From positions 62,001 to 126,000 of the forward strand of contig NZ_JACRUI010000006.1 in NCBI RefSeq assembly GCF_014305095.1: DNA of 64,000 nucleotides, read 5' to 3'. Positions within the stretch are counted from its first letter, which is position 1; every line of letters starts with the position of its first letter. Positions 49,396 to 55,068 of this stretch are shown here, one piece after another. The position numbers and the translations under genes were made by a program. The DNA comes from Flavobacterium kayseriense. Its GTDB lineage: Bacteria > Bacteroidota > Bacteroidia > Flavobacteriales > Flavobacteriaceae. Under the pieces are notes generated by a model. It ran no database searches and was not told the DNA's origin. It saw nothing but the letters and a program-made list of their open reading frames with translations.

Positions 49396-51120
49396 TTATA
49401 GTATTGATTCCTTTTTAGTTCTAAATATAGTCCATTGAAGTAAGGATGATAAAATGATAGTTAAGGTAGCTCCAATAAAATTGAGCCATAAATAACCTAG
49501 TTTTTCTTCACCACTAGGATAAATGTAGATCGCATAATAATAGATGATAAAAATTGTCATTTGACTCACCAGTGCACTGTAAAAAATGGCCTTAGCTTTC
49601 ACGTATTTTACATAGAAACCAACAAGGAAAATTCCTAGTACTGTACCGTAAAATATAGAACCAATGATATTAACTAATTGGATCAGGTTTTCAAAGAGGG
49701 TACCTATACATGCAAATAAGATTGCTACGACACCCCAAAATAAAGTAAAAAACTTAGTAGCATTGAGATAGTGTTTGTCTGATTTTTCAACCTTCAAATT
49801 TCGTTTATAGATGTCTATCGCTGTAGTCGAAGCTAAAGCATTTAATCCCGACGCTGTAGATGACATTGCTGCCGACATGATAACGGCCAATAATAAACCA
49901 ATTAATCCTTTAGGGAGGTAATTTAAAATAAAGTGAAAGAAAACATAATCTTTGTCATTTGTCTCACTGCCGCTATCTGCTTTTAAAATAATTTCTTTAG
50001 CTCGATCGCGTAAATCTTTTTCTTTTGTGGATAATGCGACTAGCTCCTTTCGTAAAATCGGGTTGTCATAATCTTGATTAAGTTGGTCGATATATAGAAG
50101 ATTAATTACTTTTTTGTCCTCGGATAAAGCGTCTAGCTTTTTCTCTAAAGTATTATACTCGTCTTTATAAGCTGATTTCTCAATAGTAACTTTATTGTTA
50201 GGATTAAAATTTAAGGGAACAGGATTAAATTGAAAAAAAACAAAAACCATAACACCAGTTAGCAAAATAAAGAATTGCATAGGCACTTTTAACAAACCAT
50301 TCATGATCAAACCCATTTGGCTTTCTCGTACTGATTTTCCAGATAAGTAACGTCCTACTTGCGATTGATCTGTACCAAAGTATGCTAAAGCTAAAAAGAA
50401 ACCACCGGTAATACCGCTCCAGAATGTATATTTTTCTTCTGGATCTGTAGAAAAATTAACGATGTTCATTTTATCATTAGCCCCAGCAATATGAAGTGCG
50501 TTACTGAACGTCATGTCATTAGGTAAGTAATGTAGAATTAGAAAAAACGTAATTAGCATTCCTGACATAATCACGAACATTTGCTGCTTTTGAGTTACGT
50601 TTACAGCTTTAGTTCCACCAGAGAAGGTATAAAATATAACCAAAACACCAATCACGATATTCATATAGGTAAGATTCCAACCTAAAATTGCAGATAGAAT
50701 AATTGCTGGTGCATATATTGTAAGTCCAGTTCCTAAACCTCGCTGAAACAAGAAAAGTATCGCAGCAAGTGACCTTGTTTTTAGATCAAATCTTTTCTCC
50801 AAGTATTCATAAGCAGTATAAACTTTATATTTATGGTAAATAGGAATAAAAGTCAAACAAATAACAATCATGGCTATTGGGAGACCAAAATAGAACTGAA
50901 TAAAGCCCATTCCATCATGATAGGCCTGTCCGGGAGTAGATAAAAAAGTAATCGCACTGGCTTGCGTAGCCATGACAGATAAACCAACGGTGTACCATGG
51001 CGTTTCGTTATTTCCTAATATAAAATCTTCTACATTTTTGCTTCCTTTCGTTTTCCAAGAGCCGTAACCTACAATAAATAATAAGGTAACAATAAGTACA
51101 ATCCAATCAAATAGTTGCAT
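49396..51120 (-). CDS. Sodium:solute symporter (SSS family)
   Basis: A 574-residue transporter with about 13 transmembrane helices. SSS hallmarks are the unwound first helix region with SVMATQASAITFLSTPGQAY, a later GTDQSQVGRYLSGKS and MSAAMSSTASGLNALAST, which holds Na+-site serines. An unusual hydrophilic stretch of about 100 residues (about 305-385, charged, predicted helical) interrupts the membrane domain. The solute is unknown. Gene order places it third in an operon after a PIG-L deacetylase and a 35-residue membrane peptide. Confidence 0.93.
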   Translation of the reverse strand: MQLFDWIVLIVTLLFIVGYGSWKTKGSKNVEDFILGNNETPWYTVGLSVMATQASAITFLSTPGQAYHDGMGFIQFYFGLPIAMIVICLTFIPIYHKYKVYTAYEYLEKRFDLKTRSLAAILFLFQRGLGTGLTIYAPAIILSAILGWNLTYMNIVIGVLVIFYTFSGGTKAVNVTQKQQMFVIMSGMLITFFLILHYLPNDMTFSNALHIAGANDKMNIVNFSTDPEEKYTFWSGITGGFFLALAYFGTDQSQVGRYLSGKSVRESQMGLIMNGLLKVPMQFFILLTGVMVFVFFQFNPVPLNFNPNNKVTIEKSAYKDEYNTLEKKLDALSEDKKVINLLYIDQLNQDYDNPILRKELVALSTKEKDLRDRAKEIILKADSGSETNDKDYVFFHFILNYLPKGLIGLLLAVIMSAAMSSTASGLNALASTTAIDIYKRNLKVEKSDKHYLNATKFFTLFWGVVAILFACIGTLFENLIQLVNIIGSIFYGTVLGIFLVGFYVKYVKAKAIFYSALVSQMTIFIIYYYAIYIYPSGEEKLGYLWLNFIGATLTIILSSLLQWTIFRTKKESIL

Positions 51121-51123
51121 AGG

Positions 51124-51231
51124 TTAGGAGTATAGTTTCATAATTAAACAAAAGACCAATATATAAATGGCATTTGCCACTAGAACTAAGGTGTAGTTCT
51201 TTTTCCAAATTTTAGTTTTTTTAATTTCCAT
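51124..51231 (-). CDS. 35-residue single-pass membrane peptide upstream of the Na+ symporter
   Basis: A complete small frame, ATG at 51229-51231 and TAA at 51124-51126, too short for usual gene finders. The peptide has a basic N-terminus (MEIKKTKIWKKNY) followed by one hydrophobic helix (TLVLVANAIYILVFCLIM) and a short KLYS tail, so it should insert with its N-terminus in the cytoplasm. Its stop lies three bases before the symporter ATG and its start 21 bases after the PIG-L stop. This layout suggests an accessory subunit or stabiliser of the transporter, as known for other small membrane proteins; that role is inference. Confidence 0.72.
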   Translation of the reverse strand: MEIKKTKIWKKNYTLVLVANAIYILVFCLIMKLYS

Positions 51232-51252: not shown

Positions 51253-53772
51253 TTATTTATTTAGGTTCGTAGCGCTTTTTTGTATTGATATCATATTAGA
51301 TAGTAATCGATACGCACCAGATACGCCTTCGGGTAGTTCTCTAAATAGACTTAGGCCTGTGTAAATGTAAAATCCTTTACCGTATGGAGCTACTAAAAGA
51401 GCTCCGTTTTTAGGGCTTTCTCCTTTGTCATTAGAGGATATAATTGGGGTAAAGGCGCTGTCGAATGTATTTGGGTAATATAAACCTTGCTCTTGAGTCC
51501 AACCTTCAAAATCTTTAGCTGTTATTTTATTCGGATAGTTCAATATAGGGTGATTTGGTGCTAAAAAGCGAACTTCAGCATTTTCTTCTGTTACGCGATC
51601 GCGAGAAATAGTTAGTGGATAAGGTGCTATATTAGCTGTGCTAGCTCCTTCTGGAGTATTGTATTGAACAATCATTGTTTTGCCTTCTTTTATGAAATCA
51701 AAAAGGATTTGTTGTTTTGCTTGTAAATTAGGAAGCACATTGTAAGCTCTGATACCCGTAATAATTACATCTAAAGGTTTAATTTTTTCCGCTGTAATAT
51801 CCTCTGGAGTAAGTATAGTTACTTGGTAACCCATTTGCACCAAGCTTTCTGGCACTTCGTCACCAGCACCCATGATGTAACCTATTTTTTGATCAATAAT
51901 TTTTAGGTCTAATTTTATAAATTTTGCTTCTGCAGATTTTAAAATTTGTTGTTTGGTGATGTGTGGGTAATCAATTATAATTTGTTCTTTGTCAAGGTTG
52001 TTGTTATTAACAGTAGCAATTGCTTTGGCAGTTACTTCAGCATTAGTTTTTGGAGGTGTAACTTCAAAGGAAACAATTTGCTCCATATCTTTCTTTTCAA
52101 AAGAAAAACCAATTGATGCAGGAGTAACAATCCAATTTGGTGGTAGGTCTAATTTTAAATCTCCTGCAACCTTATCTTTACCCGCTTTTACTTTCACTCG
52201 TATAGCTTTGCTATTGTTTGCATTAAAAAAGACAACTTTATTAATGATTCCGGTTGTTACTTCTGGGACAATATCCAGAAAGTTGTACATTTCTCCTTTT
52301 ACATTATCGTTGTATTTGTAGATAACAGTTCGTTCAAAAGGAATCTCAACCCCGTTAATATCAAGAGTAAATTGCACTTTTATATCTCTAATGATATCCG
52401 GAATTCCAATATTTTGTTGATCATTTACCACATACATACCCACAGTTCCCTTATCTTTTAGCCAATAAGGTTGTGTGTAAGAACTGTTATCAGGAATTTG
52501 AATATCTAAATTTATATTCTCTAAGGCATTGTTTTGTAGTGTTTTATTGAATATCGTTGTTTTTTGATTAGGCAATGTAGTAATGTTAACTAGCTTCATT
52601 GGAACTGTAGAGCGGTTAATTGCTTCAAGTTTTATACGGATGCTACTTCCAGGACTTGCTTCTTGAGTAGTCGAAGCTGCCTCAAGATACAAACCTGCGC
52701 AAGATGATATGATTTTTTTAATATCGGAGGTTTTGATGTTTTTCCAATGTTCTTCTTTTAAAGCTTGTATCATTGTGTAGGCTTTTGCCAAATCTGGAAT
52801 ACTAGCTGATGGGTCAGCGAAGTTATATTTTGCTGCTATTTGCGTAATTAGTTCTCCAATAGCTTTTCCTCCAGCAACTCTGTTCCAACTTGTATCGATA
52901 CCTTCAAATATATTTTCTTTATCTTTTAGGGAATCACCATTCAATAATTCAAGATAATCAACATCTTCACCGCGGCTTCCTGTACTACCAAACCCTTGTG
53001 ATTGATGACTTGAGCGACTTAATGCAGCAATTTCTTGGTTTGATTTTCCAAGGTTAGCATAGTATGTTCCAGTTTTAATAGTTGTTAATCTAATTTTGTC
53101 GGCTGCATCAAATTTTTCTTGAGTTCCATAGAACCACCACGAAGTATTGAAAAATTGACGTTTGGGCTGCCACGGTTGTAGGTATTTTAATTGTTCAGGA
53201 AAAGCGGTAGCGTTGTTGGCTAAGTTAAAACTCTCAACACTTAAAATTGCCGAAGCGGTATGGTGTCCGTGTGTTGTTCCTGGGGAACGATGATCAAAAC
53301 GATTGATGATTACATCTGGTTGAAATTTGCGGATAGCCCACACTACATCAGATAGTACTTTTTGTTTATCCCAAATTTCTAAAGTCTCATTTGGATTTTT
53401 AGAAAATCCAAAATCATTGGCTCGGGAAAAAAATTGCTCGCCTCCATCAATTTTTCTAGCTTCAATTAATTCTTGCGTTCTTATCACTCCAAGAAGTTCT
53501 CTTAGCTGCGGTCCAATCAAATTTTGTCCACCATCTCCTCTAGTTAAGGACAAATAGCCTGTCCTTGCTTTATTTTTATTAGCTAAATAGGAAATAAGTC
53601 TGGTGTTTTCATCATCTGGATGAGCAGCGATGTACAGGACAGTTCCTAAAAAATTAAGTTTTTGAATTTGATTATAAATTTCAACAGCGTTTGGTTTTTC
53701 TGGTTTTTGAGCCAAGAGTAGCTGCGATGCGAAAACGAATAGTAAAAAAAACGAAATTTTATTTTTCAACAT
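51253..53772 (-). CDS. Large exported PIG-L/LmbE-family deacetylase
   Basis: An 839-residue protein with signal peptide (MLKNKISFFLLFVFASQLLLAQ); the ATG at 53772 was chosen because the earlier one (53802) overlaps the promoter box. Residues about 40-330 hold the zinc-dependent LmbE-like fold with AAHPDDENTRL (metal-binding HPDDE) and FDHRSPGTTHGHHTAS (further histidine ligand). The rest contains beta-sandwich-like domains and a C-terminal class I glutamine amidotransferase-like segment (VIITGIRAYN, MIVQYNTPEG). Such enzymes remove N-acetyl groups from sugars; substrate unknown. It shares an operon with a Na+ symporter, so the released product may be imported. Confidence 0.9.
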   Translation of the reverse strand: MLKNKISFFLLFVFASQLLLAQKPEKPNAVEIYNQIQKLNFLGTVLYIAAHPDDENTRLISYLANKNKARTGYLSLTRGDGGQNLIGPQLRELLGVIRTQELIEARKIDGGEQFFSRANDFGFSKNPNETLEIWDKQKVLSDVVWAIRKFQPDVIINRFDHRSPGTTHGHHTASAILSVESFNLANNATAFPEQLKYLQPWQPKRQFFNTSWWFYGTQEKFDAADKIRLTTIKTGTYYANLGKSNQEIAALSRSSHQSQGFGSTGSRGEDVDYLELLNGDSLKDKENIFEGIDTSWNRVAGGKAIGELITQIAAKYNFADPSASIPDLAKAYTMIQALKEEHWKNIKTSDIKKIISSCAGLYLEAASTTQEASPGSSIRIKLEAINRSTVPMKLVNITTLPNQKTTIFNKTLQNNALENINLDIQIPDNSSYTQPYWLKDKGTVGMYVVNDQQNIGIPDIIRDIKVQFTLDINGVEIPFERTVIYKYNDNVKGEMYNFLDIVPEVTTGIINKVVFFNANNSKAIRVKVKAGKDKVAGDLKLDLPPNWIVTPASIGFSFEKKDMEQIVSFEVTPPKTNAEVTAKAIATVNNNNLDKEQIIIDYPHITKQQILKSAEAKFIKLDLKIIDQKIGYIMGAGDEVPESLVQMGYQVTILTPEDITAEKIKPLDVIITGIRAYNVLPNLQAKQQILFDFIKEGKTMIVQYNTPEGASTANIAPYPLTISRDRVTEENAEVRFLAPNHPILNYPNKITAKDFEGWTQEQGLYYPNTFDSAFTPIISSNDKGESPKNGALLVAPYGKGFYIYTGLSLFRELPEGVSGAYRLLSNMISIQKSATNLNK

Positions 53773-53799
53773 TATATTAGAATTAAATTGCGGTAGCTT

Positions 53800-53807
53800 C
53801 AAAAGTA
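53800..53807 (-). promoter_or_regulatory. -7 box (TACTTTTG) of the PIG-L operon
   Basis: Full TAnnTTTG match on the minus strand, 27 bases before the ATG at 53772. It overlaps the alternative upstream ATG (53802), supporting the shorter protein. Confidence 0.5.
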
Positions 53808-53922: not shown

Positions 53923-54459
53923 TTAATCTCTATTCCGACCTTTGTTTCCATGTCGGTTATCGTGACCTTTTTTATCTTGTTTTTTCGAATACCTTTTATT
54001 ATCAGCATACCTTCGGTTGTCATTGTATCTATTACTGCGCGAGTAGTTAGGCCTTTGAGTGTAACGTTGCTGTACCTGTCTGCTTCCAATATTTCTTTGG
54101 TAATGTCCTCTGTACCCAACTCTATAATCTCTTCTGTGATTTTTGAAATTATTGTAAGGTGTTCGTCCATGGTAATTGTTCAATACCACTTTATAACCAC
54201 TGTACAAGTCATAGTTTCGGTATTGTCTTGGTAAGTACCTAGATCGTACCCATCTGTTATTTCCAAAATAAATAAATTGGGATGCCCTGATATCATAATA
54301 TGCTTGTACATCAGGTAAATAATAGTAATCTATATTTGTATAACCTACAGGTCCCCATGAAGGTTGCGCTCCTATATTTACATTAACGGAAAGCTGTGCA
54401 GTAGTTGTGTTAGCGATTAAAAGTACTATTCCAAAAGCTAATAGTTTTAAAGTTTTCAT
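53923..54459 (-). CDS. Small secreted basic protein, paralog A (Arg/Asn/Tyr-rich tail)
   Basis: A 178-residue exported protein (signal peptide to about residue 21, TTTAQ). The conserved core, residues about 22-115, contains WGPVGYTNIDYYYLPDV, YYDIRASQFIYFGN and NYDLYSGYKVVLNNYHG. The remaining 60 residues are low-complexity and rich in Arg, Asn, Tyr and Lys, probably disordered. I do not recognise a named family. The next gene upstream (54607-55068) is a clear paralog sharing the core; an overlapping frame at 53910-54170 is rejected as a shadow. Confidence 0.82.
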   Translation of the reverse strand: MKTLKLLAFGIVLLIANTTTAQLSVNVNIGAQPSWGPVGYTNIDYYYLPDVQAYYDIRASQFIYFGNNRWVRSRYLPRQYRNYDLYSGYKVVLNNYHGRTPYNNFKNHRRDYRVGYRGHYQRNIGSRQVQQRYTQRPNYSRSNRYNDNRRYADNKRYSKKQDKKGHDNRHGNKGRNRD

Positions 54460-54606: not shown

Positions 54607-55068
54607 TTACTTATTTTTAGAATGACCGCTTTTGCCCTTATTATCCTTACTGTTTTTCTTATAACTTTTACCACTGTGTTTAAAATTCTTGGTACCAATT
54701 GTTTTTTGAGGCTTTCCTTTGTACCCTTTATAATATTTTACCTTATGTGTTTTAAAATAAGTATAGGGACTTTTACCGTGATAGTCATTTAAAACAACTT
54801 TGTAGCCATTATAAAGATCGTAGTTTCTGTAAGAACCAGGTAAATATTTGTTTCTATTCCATTTACCATTCCCAAAATAAATAAATTGCGATGCTCTAAT
54901 ATCGTAGTAGGCCTCGACGTCAGGTAAATAATAATAATCAACATTGGAGTAGCCTACAGGTCCCCAAGCAGGTGGTGTGCCTATATTTACATTTACTGCA
55001 ACTTGTGCTTGAGATTGTCCTGCTATTAGAAAAAGCAGGGCAATAAGTATTGATTTTAAATTTTTCAT
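54607..55068 (-). CDS. Small secreted basic protein, paralog B (Lys/Gly-rich tail)
   Basis: A 153-residue exported protein (signal peptide to about QSQAQ, residue 21). The core aligns without large gaps to paralog A: WGPVGYSNVDYYYLPDV, YYDIRASQFIYFGN, NYDLYNGYKVVLNDYHG. Where A has arginines the core of B often has lysines, and the tail (about 115-153) is rich in Lys, Gly and Ser (GKSYKKNSKDNKGKSGHSK). The function is unknown; a basic, flexible tail could bind lipopolysaccharide, DNA or a matrix, but this is conjecture. Tandem duplication with 54459. Confidence 0.82.
   Translation of the reverse strand: MKNLKSILIALLFLIAGQSQAQVAVNVNIGTPPAWGPVGYSNVDYYYLPDVEAYYDIRASQFIYFGNGKWNRNKYLPGSYRNYDLYNGYKVVLNDYHGKSPYTYFKTHKVKYYKGYKGKPQKTIGTKNFKHSGKSYKKNSKDNKGKSGHSKNK

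Follow-up and report, generated by a model that had tools for sequence, protein, structure and literature searches.

Small membrane proteins that act on transporters are familiar from several systems. KdpF occupies an operon position ahead of KdpA; the DUF4212 subunit (TIGR03647, PF13937) of VC_2705-type SSS symporters is a two-TM protein; and MAP17, which is longer than the peptide described here and has a PDZ-related role, has a topology opposite to that predicted for this peptide. One study reports that the single helix of MAP17 (PDZK1IP1) contacts TM13 of human SGLT2 (PMC10803289), and a review describes AcrZ and MgtS as small single-helix peptides acting on transporters (PMC10710835). Within the 64,000-nucleotide stretch of DNA analyzed here (the window), a 35-codon gene directly upstream of an SSS symporter gene suggests a comparable arrangement. 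The nearest in kind is that of MAP17 and SGLT2, one helix beside an SSF-fold transporter, although the MAP17 contact lies at TM13 and the site suggested below for the window peptide is the outer loop between TM5 and TM6. KdpF, AcrZ, and MgtS, at about 30-50 aa, resemble the window peptide in its proposed transporter-acting role but serve other transporter folds. No Pfam or NCBIfam match links the peptide to KdpF, AcrZ, or MgtS, and a search with peptide profile A1 for homology to MAP17 among PDB chain sequences, a set that may include the MAP17 chains, yielded nothing at E up to 10. The likeness to MAP17 or KdpF is one of kind, and not of detected homology.

The DUF4212 system is also represented in the window genome, where a second SSS gene (L088, G000:C1 near 139515) has an 86-aa DUF4212/TIGR03647 subunit encoded 27 nt upstream, matching PF13937 and TIGR03647 both at 1.2e-35. 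This subunit shares with the window peptide its small size, its membrane character, and a gene placed directly ahead of that of the symporter; it has, however, 86 aa and two hydrophobic stretches as against 35 aa and one helix, and its symporter belongs to another subfamily (24% identity over 197 residues with the window SSS). Membership of the window pair in this system was considered and rejected. No Pfam model (E up to 1) or NCBIfam model (E up to 10), DUF4212/TIGR03647 included, matches the window peptide, and with the VC_2705-family model (TIGR03648), whose cut-off is 320.75, the window SSS reaches 65.6 bits.

The window gene runs from ATG to TAA and encodes MEIKKTKIWKKNYTLVLVANAIYILVFCLIMKLYS, in which a basic head is followed by a single hydrophobic stretch (Table 1). 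A preliminary description of this DNA had proposed a 35-residue gene with such a head and one membrane stretch, 3 nt from the symporter start and 21 nt from the PIG-L stop, and had left the strand unstated. The gene, its composition, and both gaps are borne out; the strand is minus, and the plus-strand frame of the same interval is interrupted by stops. The PIG-L, peptide, and symporter genes follow one another in that order on the minus strand, PIG-L being the upstream member of the co-directional cluster, with an N-terminus that appears signal-like by eye. At higher coordinates on the same strand, the neighboring ORFs at 53923-54459 and 54607-55068 (178 and 153 aa) have signal-like N-termini and, by eye, clearly similar sequences, which points to a tandem duplication; Pfam (E up to 1) gives nothing for the first of them.

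Table 1. Coordinates of the peptide gene and its flanking features in the window.
Feature	Position	Strand	Evidence
Single-helix peptide gene, 35 codons	51124..51231	-	ORF, conservation, distant members in profile search
Proposed partner, an SSS/SSF sodium:solute symporter (574 aa)	49396..51120	-	PF00474 E 3.4e-41; TIGR00813 E 8.3e-69; Foldseek
Large protein of the PIG-L family (849 aa counted from TTG)	51253..53802	-	PF02585 E 2.3e-13
3-nt spacer, peptide stop and symporter ATG in same frame	51121..51123	-	Sequence reading; spacing across loci

At E up to 0.01, the peptide finds matches in 34 of 37 congeneric genomes (its own included) among the 60 related genomes searched, and in none of the 23 from other families of the same order. 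In each of the 30 congeneric loci fetched, a gap of 0-6 nt separates the end of the ORF from the symporter start, and PIG-L lies upstream of the peptide in 27 of them. Across the 30 congeneric rows M1, W9, Y13, N20, I24, and M31 are invariant, and the pooled pN/pS of the peptide frame (26 codons, 30 loci) is 0.26; in the remaining five frames it is 0.55-1.79, and stops interrupt 12 to 30 of the 30 sequences. The constant position of its end and this low pN/pS indicate that the window ORF does not occur by chance: it is a conserved protein-coding gene under purifying selection. The preliminary description had named an unconserved frame, with dN/dS about 1, as the outcome that would speak against a gene; the frame is instead kept. 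A short ORF with one TM stretch and protein-level selection is characteristic of single-helix transporter accessory peptides, and that combination is found here.

The argument for a wider association is carried by counts anchored on the symporter. A total of 170 loci, the window locus among them, were chosen by symporter alone, to avoid selection on the peptide. They comprise 80 named loci (the best 80 of 585 relatives, hence close, the nearest being symporters of Flavobacterium at 92% identity, from which Flavobacterium is the most likely source of the window); 30 loci, the window again one of them, from a search of 296 Bacteroidota genomes that detected the symporter in 115 (E up to 1e-60); and 60 from the other 86 matches of that search. 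The 26 loci left out belong nearly all to one or two distant families and include three (G670, G682, G717) with no adjacent peptide. The set represents 167 distinct symporters. Our detector accepted a single-TM ORF of 25-60 aa ending between -12 and +100 nt from the symporter start, and it found one in 163 of the 170 loci, or 164 with a further case (L200) read by eye. By script count, such an ORF is present in 30/30 loci at 85-100% symporter identity (W-Y/F motif in 30), 23/23 at 70-85% (motif in 23), 57/59 at 55-70% (motif in 55), 23/23 at 48-55% (motif in 23), 21/22 at 42-48% (motif in 19), and 9/13 at 35-42% (motif in 6), where homology is less sure. Inspection of the reading frames indicates that L249 and L254 carry the peptide; the peptides of L260, L262, L263, and L266 have a weak motif, and those of L262 and L263 fall short of the profile. 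A PF00474 scan of 30 genomes added four further orthologues with their own loci, three of them with the peptide and one (L287) lacking it. No natural fusion of peptide and symporter occurs among the 170 loci.

The commonest spacings between peptide and symporter are +3 (48 loci), +1 (38), and -4 (37), so that the two genes often overlap by 4 nt. Such tight spacing or overlap at the symporter start is typical of translational coupling, and it is what one would expect of a cis-acting leader ORF whose translation couples or regulates that of the symporter, the peptide itself being inert. The residue-level conservation described above, both in pN/pS and in the invariant positions W9, Y13, N20, I24, and M31, argues against an inert product; the separated copies considered below bear on the same question.

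Searches with the peptide itself are consistent with the symporter-anchored counts. Profile A1 matches 172 of 199 genomes of the family and 83 of 395 in the class (both at E up to 0.1), although many of the latter are probably chance; among 17 weak class loci (L070-L086), nine lie at the orthologous symporter and eight elsewhere. A second profile, A4, was built from 40 of 53 candidate peptides, all outside the window's family, with 13 excluded as duplicates or for odd starts or a weak motif. In a search not anchored on the symporter, A4 matches 72 of 198 genomes (E up to 0.01), and the best match lies directly upstream of SSS in 66 of the 72 and at 14.6-15.3 kb upstream on the same strand in four; the remaining matches are a weak one in a genome with no symporter at E 1e-60 (G712) and one beside a symporter gene that aligns only in part (G662). 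These figures are partly circular, since 30 of the 72 matched genomes had contributed A4 rows, but when contributors are set aside 36 of 42 matches are still directly upstream of the symporter. The window peptide is the only A4 match in its genome (E 1.6e-4), and hhalign aligns A1 with A4 at a probability of 96.5 and E 1e-9, for that single comparison. A4 members have weak and inconsistent matches to Pfam and NCBIfam (best 0.0014 and 0.0028). As a control, SSF genes were taken from the window's own genome and class, with start codons picked by a rule that may be off; of 39 loci, 32 non-orthologous genes were kept once four orthologues, two loci of the window gene (L091 and L094), and L092, which is another piece of L088, had been removed. 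A single-TM ORF precedes four of these, and none has the motif by eye. The peptides form one family found across Bacteroidota, directly upstream of one SSS subfamily. The preliminary description had remarked on the position beside the symporter at this one locus; the association extends across the sampled Bacteroidota, and it ties the peptide to this symporter, not to PIG-L and not to SSF transporters at large. Specific genomic association with one transporter is likewise a property of single-helix transporter accessory peptides.

The same distribution bears on two other readings. Instead of a structural subunit, the peptide could be a turnover factor that, in the manner of MgtR or MgtU, serves as an FtsH adaptor or as a protector, or it could be a general small membrane protein serving several transporters; comparable small proteins are known for other transporters (PMC10710835). 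A genome usually has one match, nearly always at this symporter gene, and the other SSF genes checked lack the peptide, which makes such a role improbable. Alternatively, the peptide might partner the PIG-L enzyme, for example as a membrane anchor, and lie near the symporter only by virtue of a shared operon. A same-strand PIG-L match is present in 144 of the 170 symporter-anchored loci, and in 112 of the 170 the PIG-L stop falls between -60 and +100 nt from the peptide start. Yet in nine of the 80 named loci the peptide and SSS are present although that strand has no PIG-L match, four loci (L205, L256, L258, L259) have PIG-L and SSS but lack the peptide, and the peptide matches track SSS in the proportions given above for A4, with or without its contributors. 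Together with the weaker coupling to PIG-L reported below, these observations leave a PIG-L partnership very improbable.

The cases in which peptide and symporter are not adjacent are informative as to how the peptide acts. In four genomes of one genus (G661, G670, G682, G717), 14.6-15.3 kb lie between the two genes. Compared with a genome in which the pair adjoins (G766), G661 matches to near the peptide end and resumes at the symporter ATG, with approximately 15.3 kb between; in G661, the one genome whose ORFs were listed, the intervening block holds large ORFs, mostly on the opposite strand. By eye this block resembles a SusC/SusD-type utilization locus that includes PIG-L and nagB-like genes. 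In all four separated genomes the peptide is open, with pairwise differences of one to four amino acids; third positions account for 1-8 of 2-13 nucleotide differences, though the numbers are small. The separation may have been a single and recent event. In another locus (L336), a 122-aa ORF stands between peptide and symporter. The intact peptides at 14.6-15.3 kb and the intervening ORF of L336 fit a trans-acting protein better than a leader; we regard an inert leader as highly improbable. Conversely, orthologues with no adjacent upstream peptide (L205, L244, L256, L258, L259, L287), one with no peptide nearby (L264), and the symporters of G670, G682, and G717, which fall outside the 170 and have no peptide adjacent, indicate that some symporters of this type either do without the peptide or have it elsewhere. 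In G662 (L330), PIG-L and an intact peptide remain but only the first 31 residues of SSS align, and a large internal deletion of the symporter is likely from the alignment.

Of 285 distinct peptides, 281 have more K/R residues on the N side of the helix than on the C side and the other four have equal numbers, and because of this excess an N-in/C-out topology is predicted; retention of this charge pattern also argues against an inert leader. In the AlphaFold fusion model, the window SSS has an SSF fold with 13 membrane helices, counting the long helix 187-235 as two, and its best Foldseek matches are SiaT, SMCT1, NIS, and SGLT2, including SGLT2-MAP17 structure entries. The symporter N-terminus is presumably outside, as in the family topology. 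A charged insert of ~85 residues (about 300-385) separates two PF00474 pieces in the window SSS, with predicted outer-side helices between the seventh and eighth core helices.

Two read-through fusions were modeled with AlphaFold, and neither shows confident docking of the peptide (peptide pLDDT about 41-56). The alignments derive from the 80 named loci minus L131 and L144, giving 79 candidate rows with the window included; A3 excludes 14 rows with a 1-nt spacer and six near-duplicates, and A5 excludes six more near-duplicates. Both fusions adopt an SSF fold (mean pLDDT about 77); the peptide pLDDT is about 41-49 in the window pair (2-residue link, A3, 59 rows) and about 43-56 in a Polaribacter pair (longer link, A5, 53 rows).

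Covariation offers a candidate contact. Mean-field DCA was applied to 300 pairs with PIG-L (293 unique), a set that mixes symporter-found and peptide-found loci. The top two of about 15,000 inter-protein pairs join peptide residues 31 and then 30 with symporter residue 220, and the best peptide-SSS pair reaches z 9.1, as against 6.3 for the best peptide-PIG-L pair. The pairs 31-220 and 30-220 also lead in nested subsets, and drop to ranks 223 and 180 among the 70 most divergent pairs. In a parsimony analysis of co-change (289 taxa), residue 220 is the best partner of residue 31, yet ranks 34 of 10,266 overall. In a Pagel test of peptide residue 31, which covered 320 of 335 variable columns, symporter 220 ranks 12 of 320, the first two places being taken by 219 and 221 in that order. 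Loop columns have the higher scores when tested with peptide residues 31 (p 0.0044) and 28 (p 0.016), but not with residues 14 (p 0.41) or 23 (p 0.081; 21 of 60 comparison columns). Peptide residues 14 and 23 nevertheless give scores with symporter residues 219 and 221 as well, and part of the covariation signal is therefore attributable to phylogeny. Residue 220 of the symporter lies in the outer loop between TM5 and TM6, and it may form a contact site with peptide residues 30/31.

We consider it probable, from the sequence comparisons described above, that the peptide is a small accessory subunit of the adjacent SSS symporter, acting as a protein; the accessory role put forward in the preliminary description is thereby supported, by inference from the conserved frame and the association with the symporter. 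The spacing or overlap of the genes (mostly +3, +1, or -4 nt) would fit coupled translation, and the peptide may be translated jointly with the symporter. It would then insert as one helix, with its basic N-terminus cytoplasmic and its C-terminus periplasmic, and might pack on the symporter in trans to stabilize, assemble, or tune it. A more ambitious proposal, which we offer tentatively and regard as doubtful when taken whole, is that an ancient SSS subfamily of Bacteroidota has the peptide as its second subunit almost universally. The peptide would then be a helix that split off and now sits outside the LeuT-fold core of 13 helices, its periplasmic end touching the TM5-TM6 outer loop and so setting gating or folding. 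Bacteria would in that case have arrived independently at a counterpart of SGLT2-MAP17, missed as too short for gene calling.

As to substrate, an ORF resembling a Gfo/Idh/MocA oxidoreductase by eye starts at or overlaps the symporter stop, downstream, in two loci (L132, L156), a hint of a sugar-type substrate. From the PIG-L and nagB-like neighbors, one might guess at an amino sugar or a derivative of one. Titles and abstract openings in the literature, among the matches listed and with few subscription journals represented, hold no description of the peptide.

At 35 residues, the peptide is far below usual gene-finding limits, and it is probable that descriptions of this symporter subfamily in Bacteroidota have lacked a conserved partner. 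The alignments made here could yield a family model with which to annotate it. Should activity depend on the peptide, expression or assay of the symporter alone would fail or mislead. The pair offers a genetically tractable system in bacteria for the study of how a single helix partners an SSF-fold transporter, an arrangement comparable to human SGLT2-MAP17.
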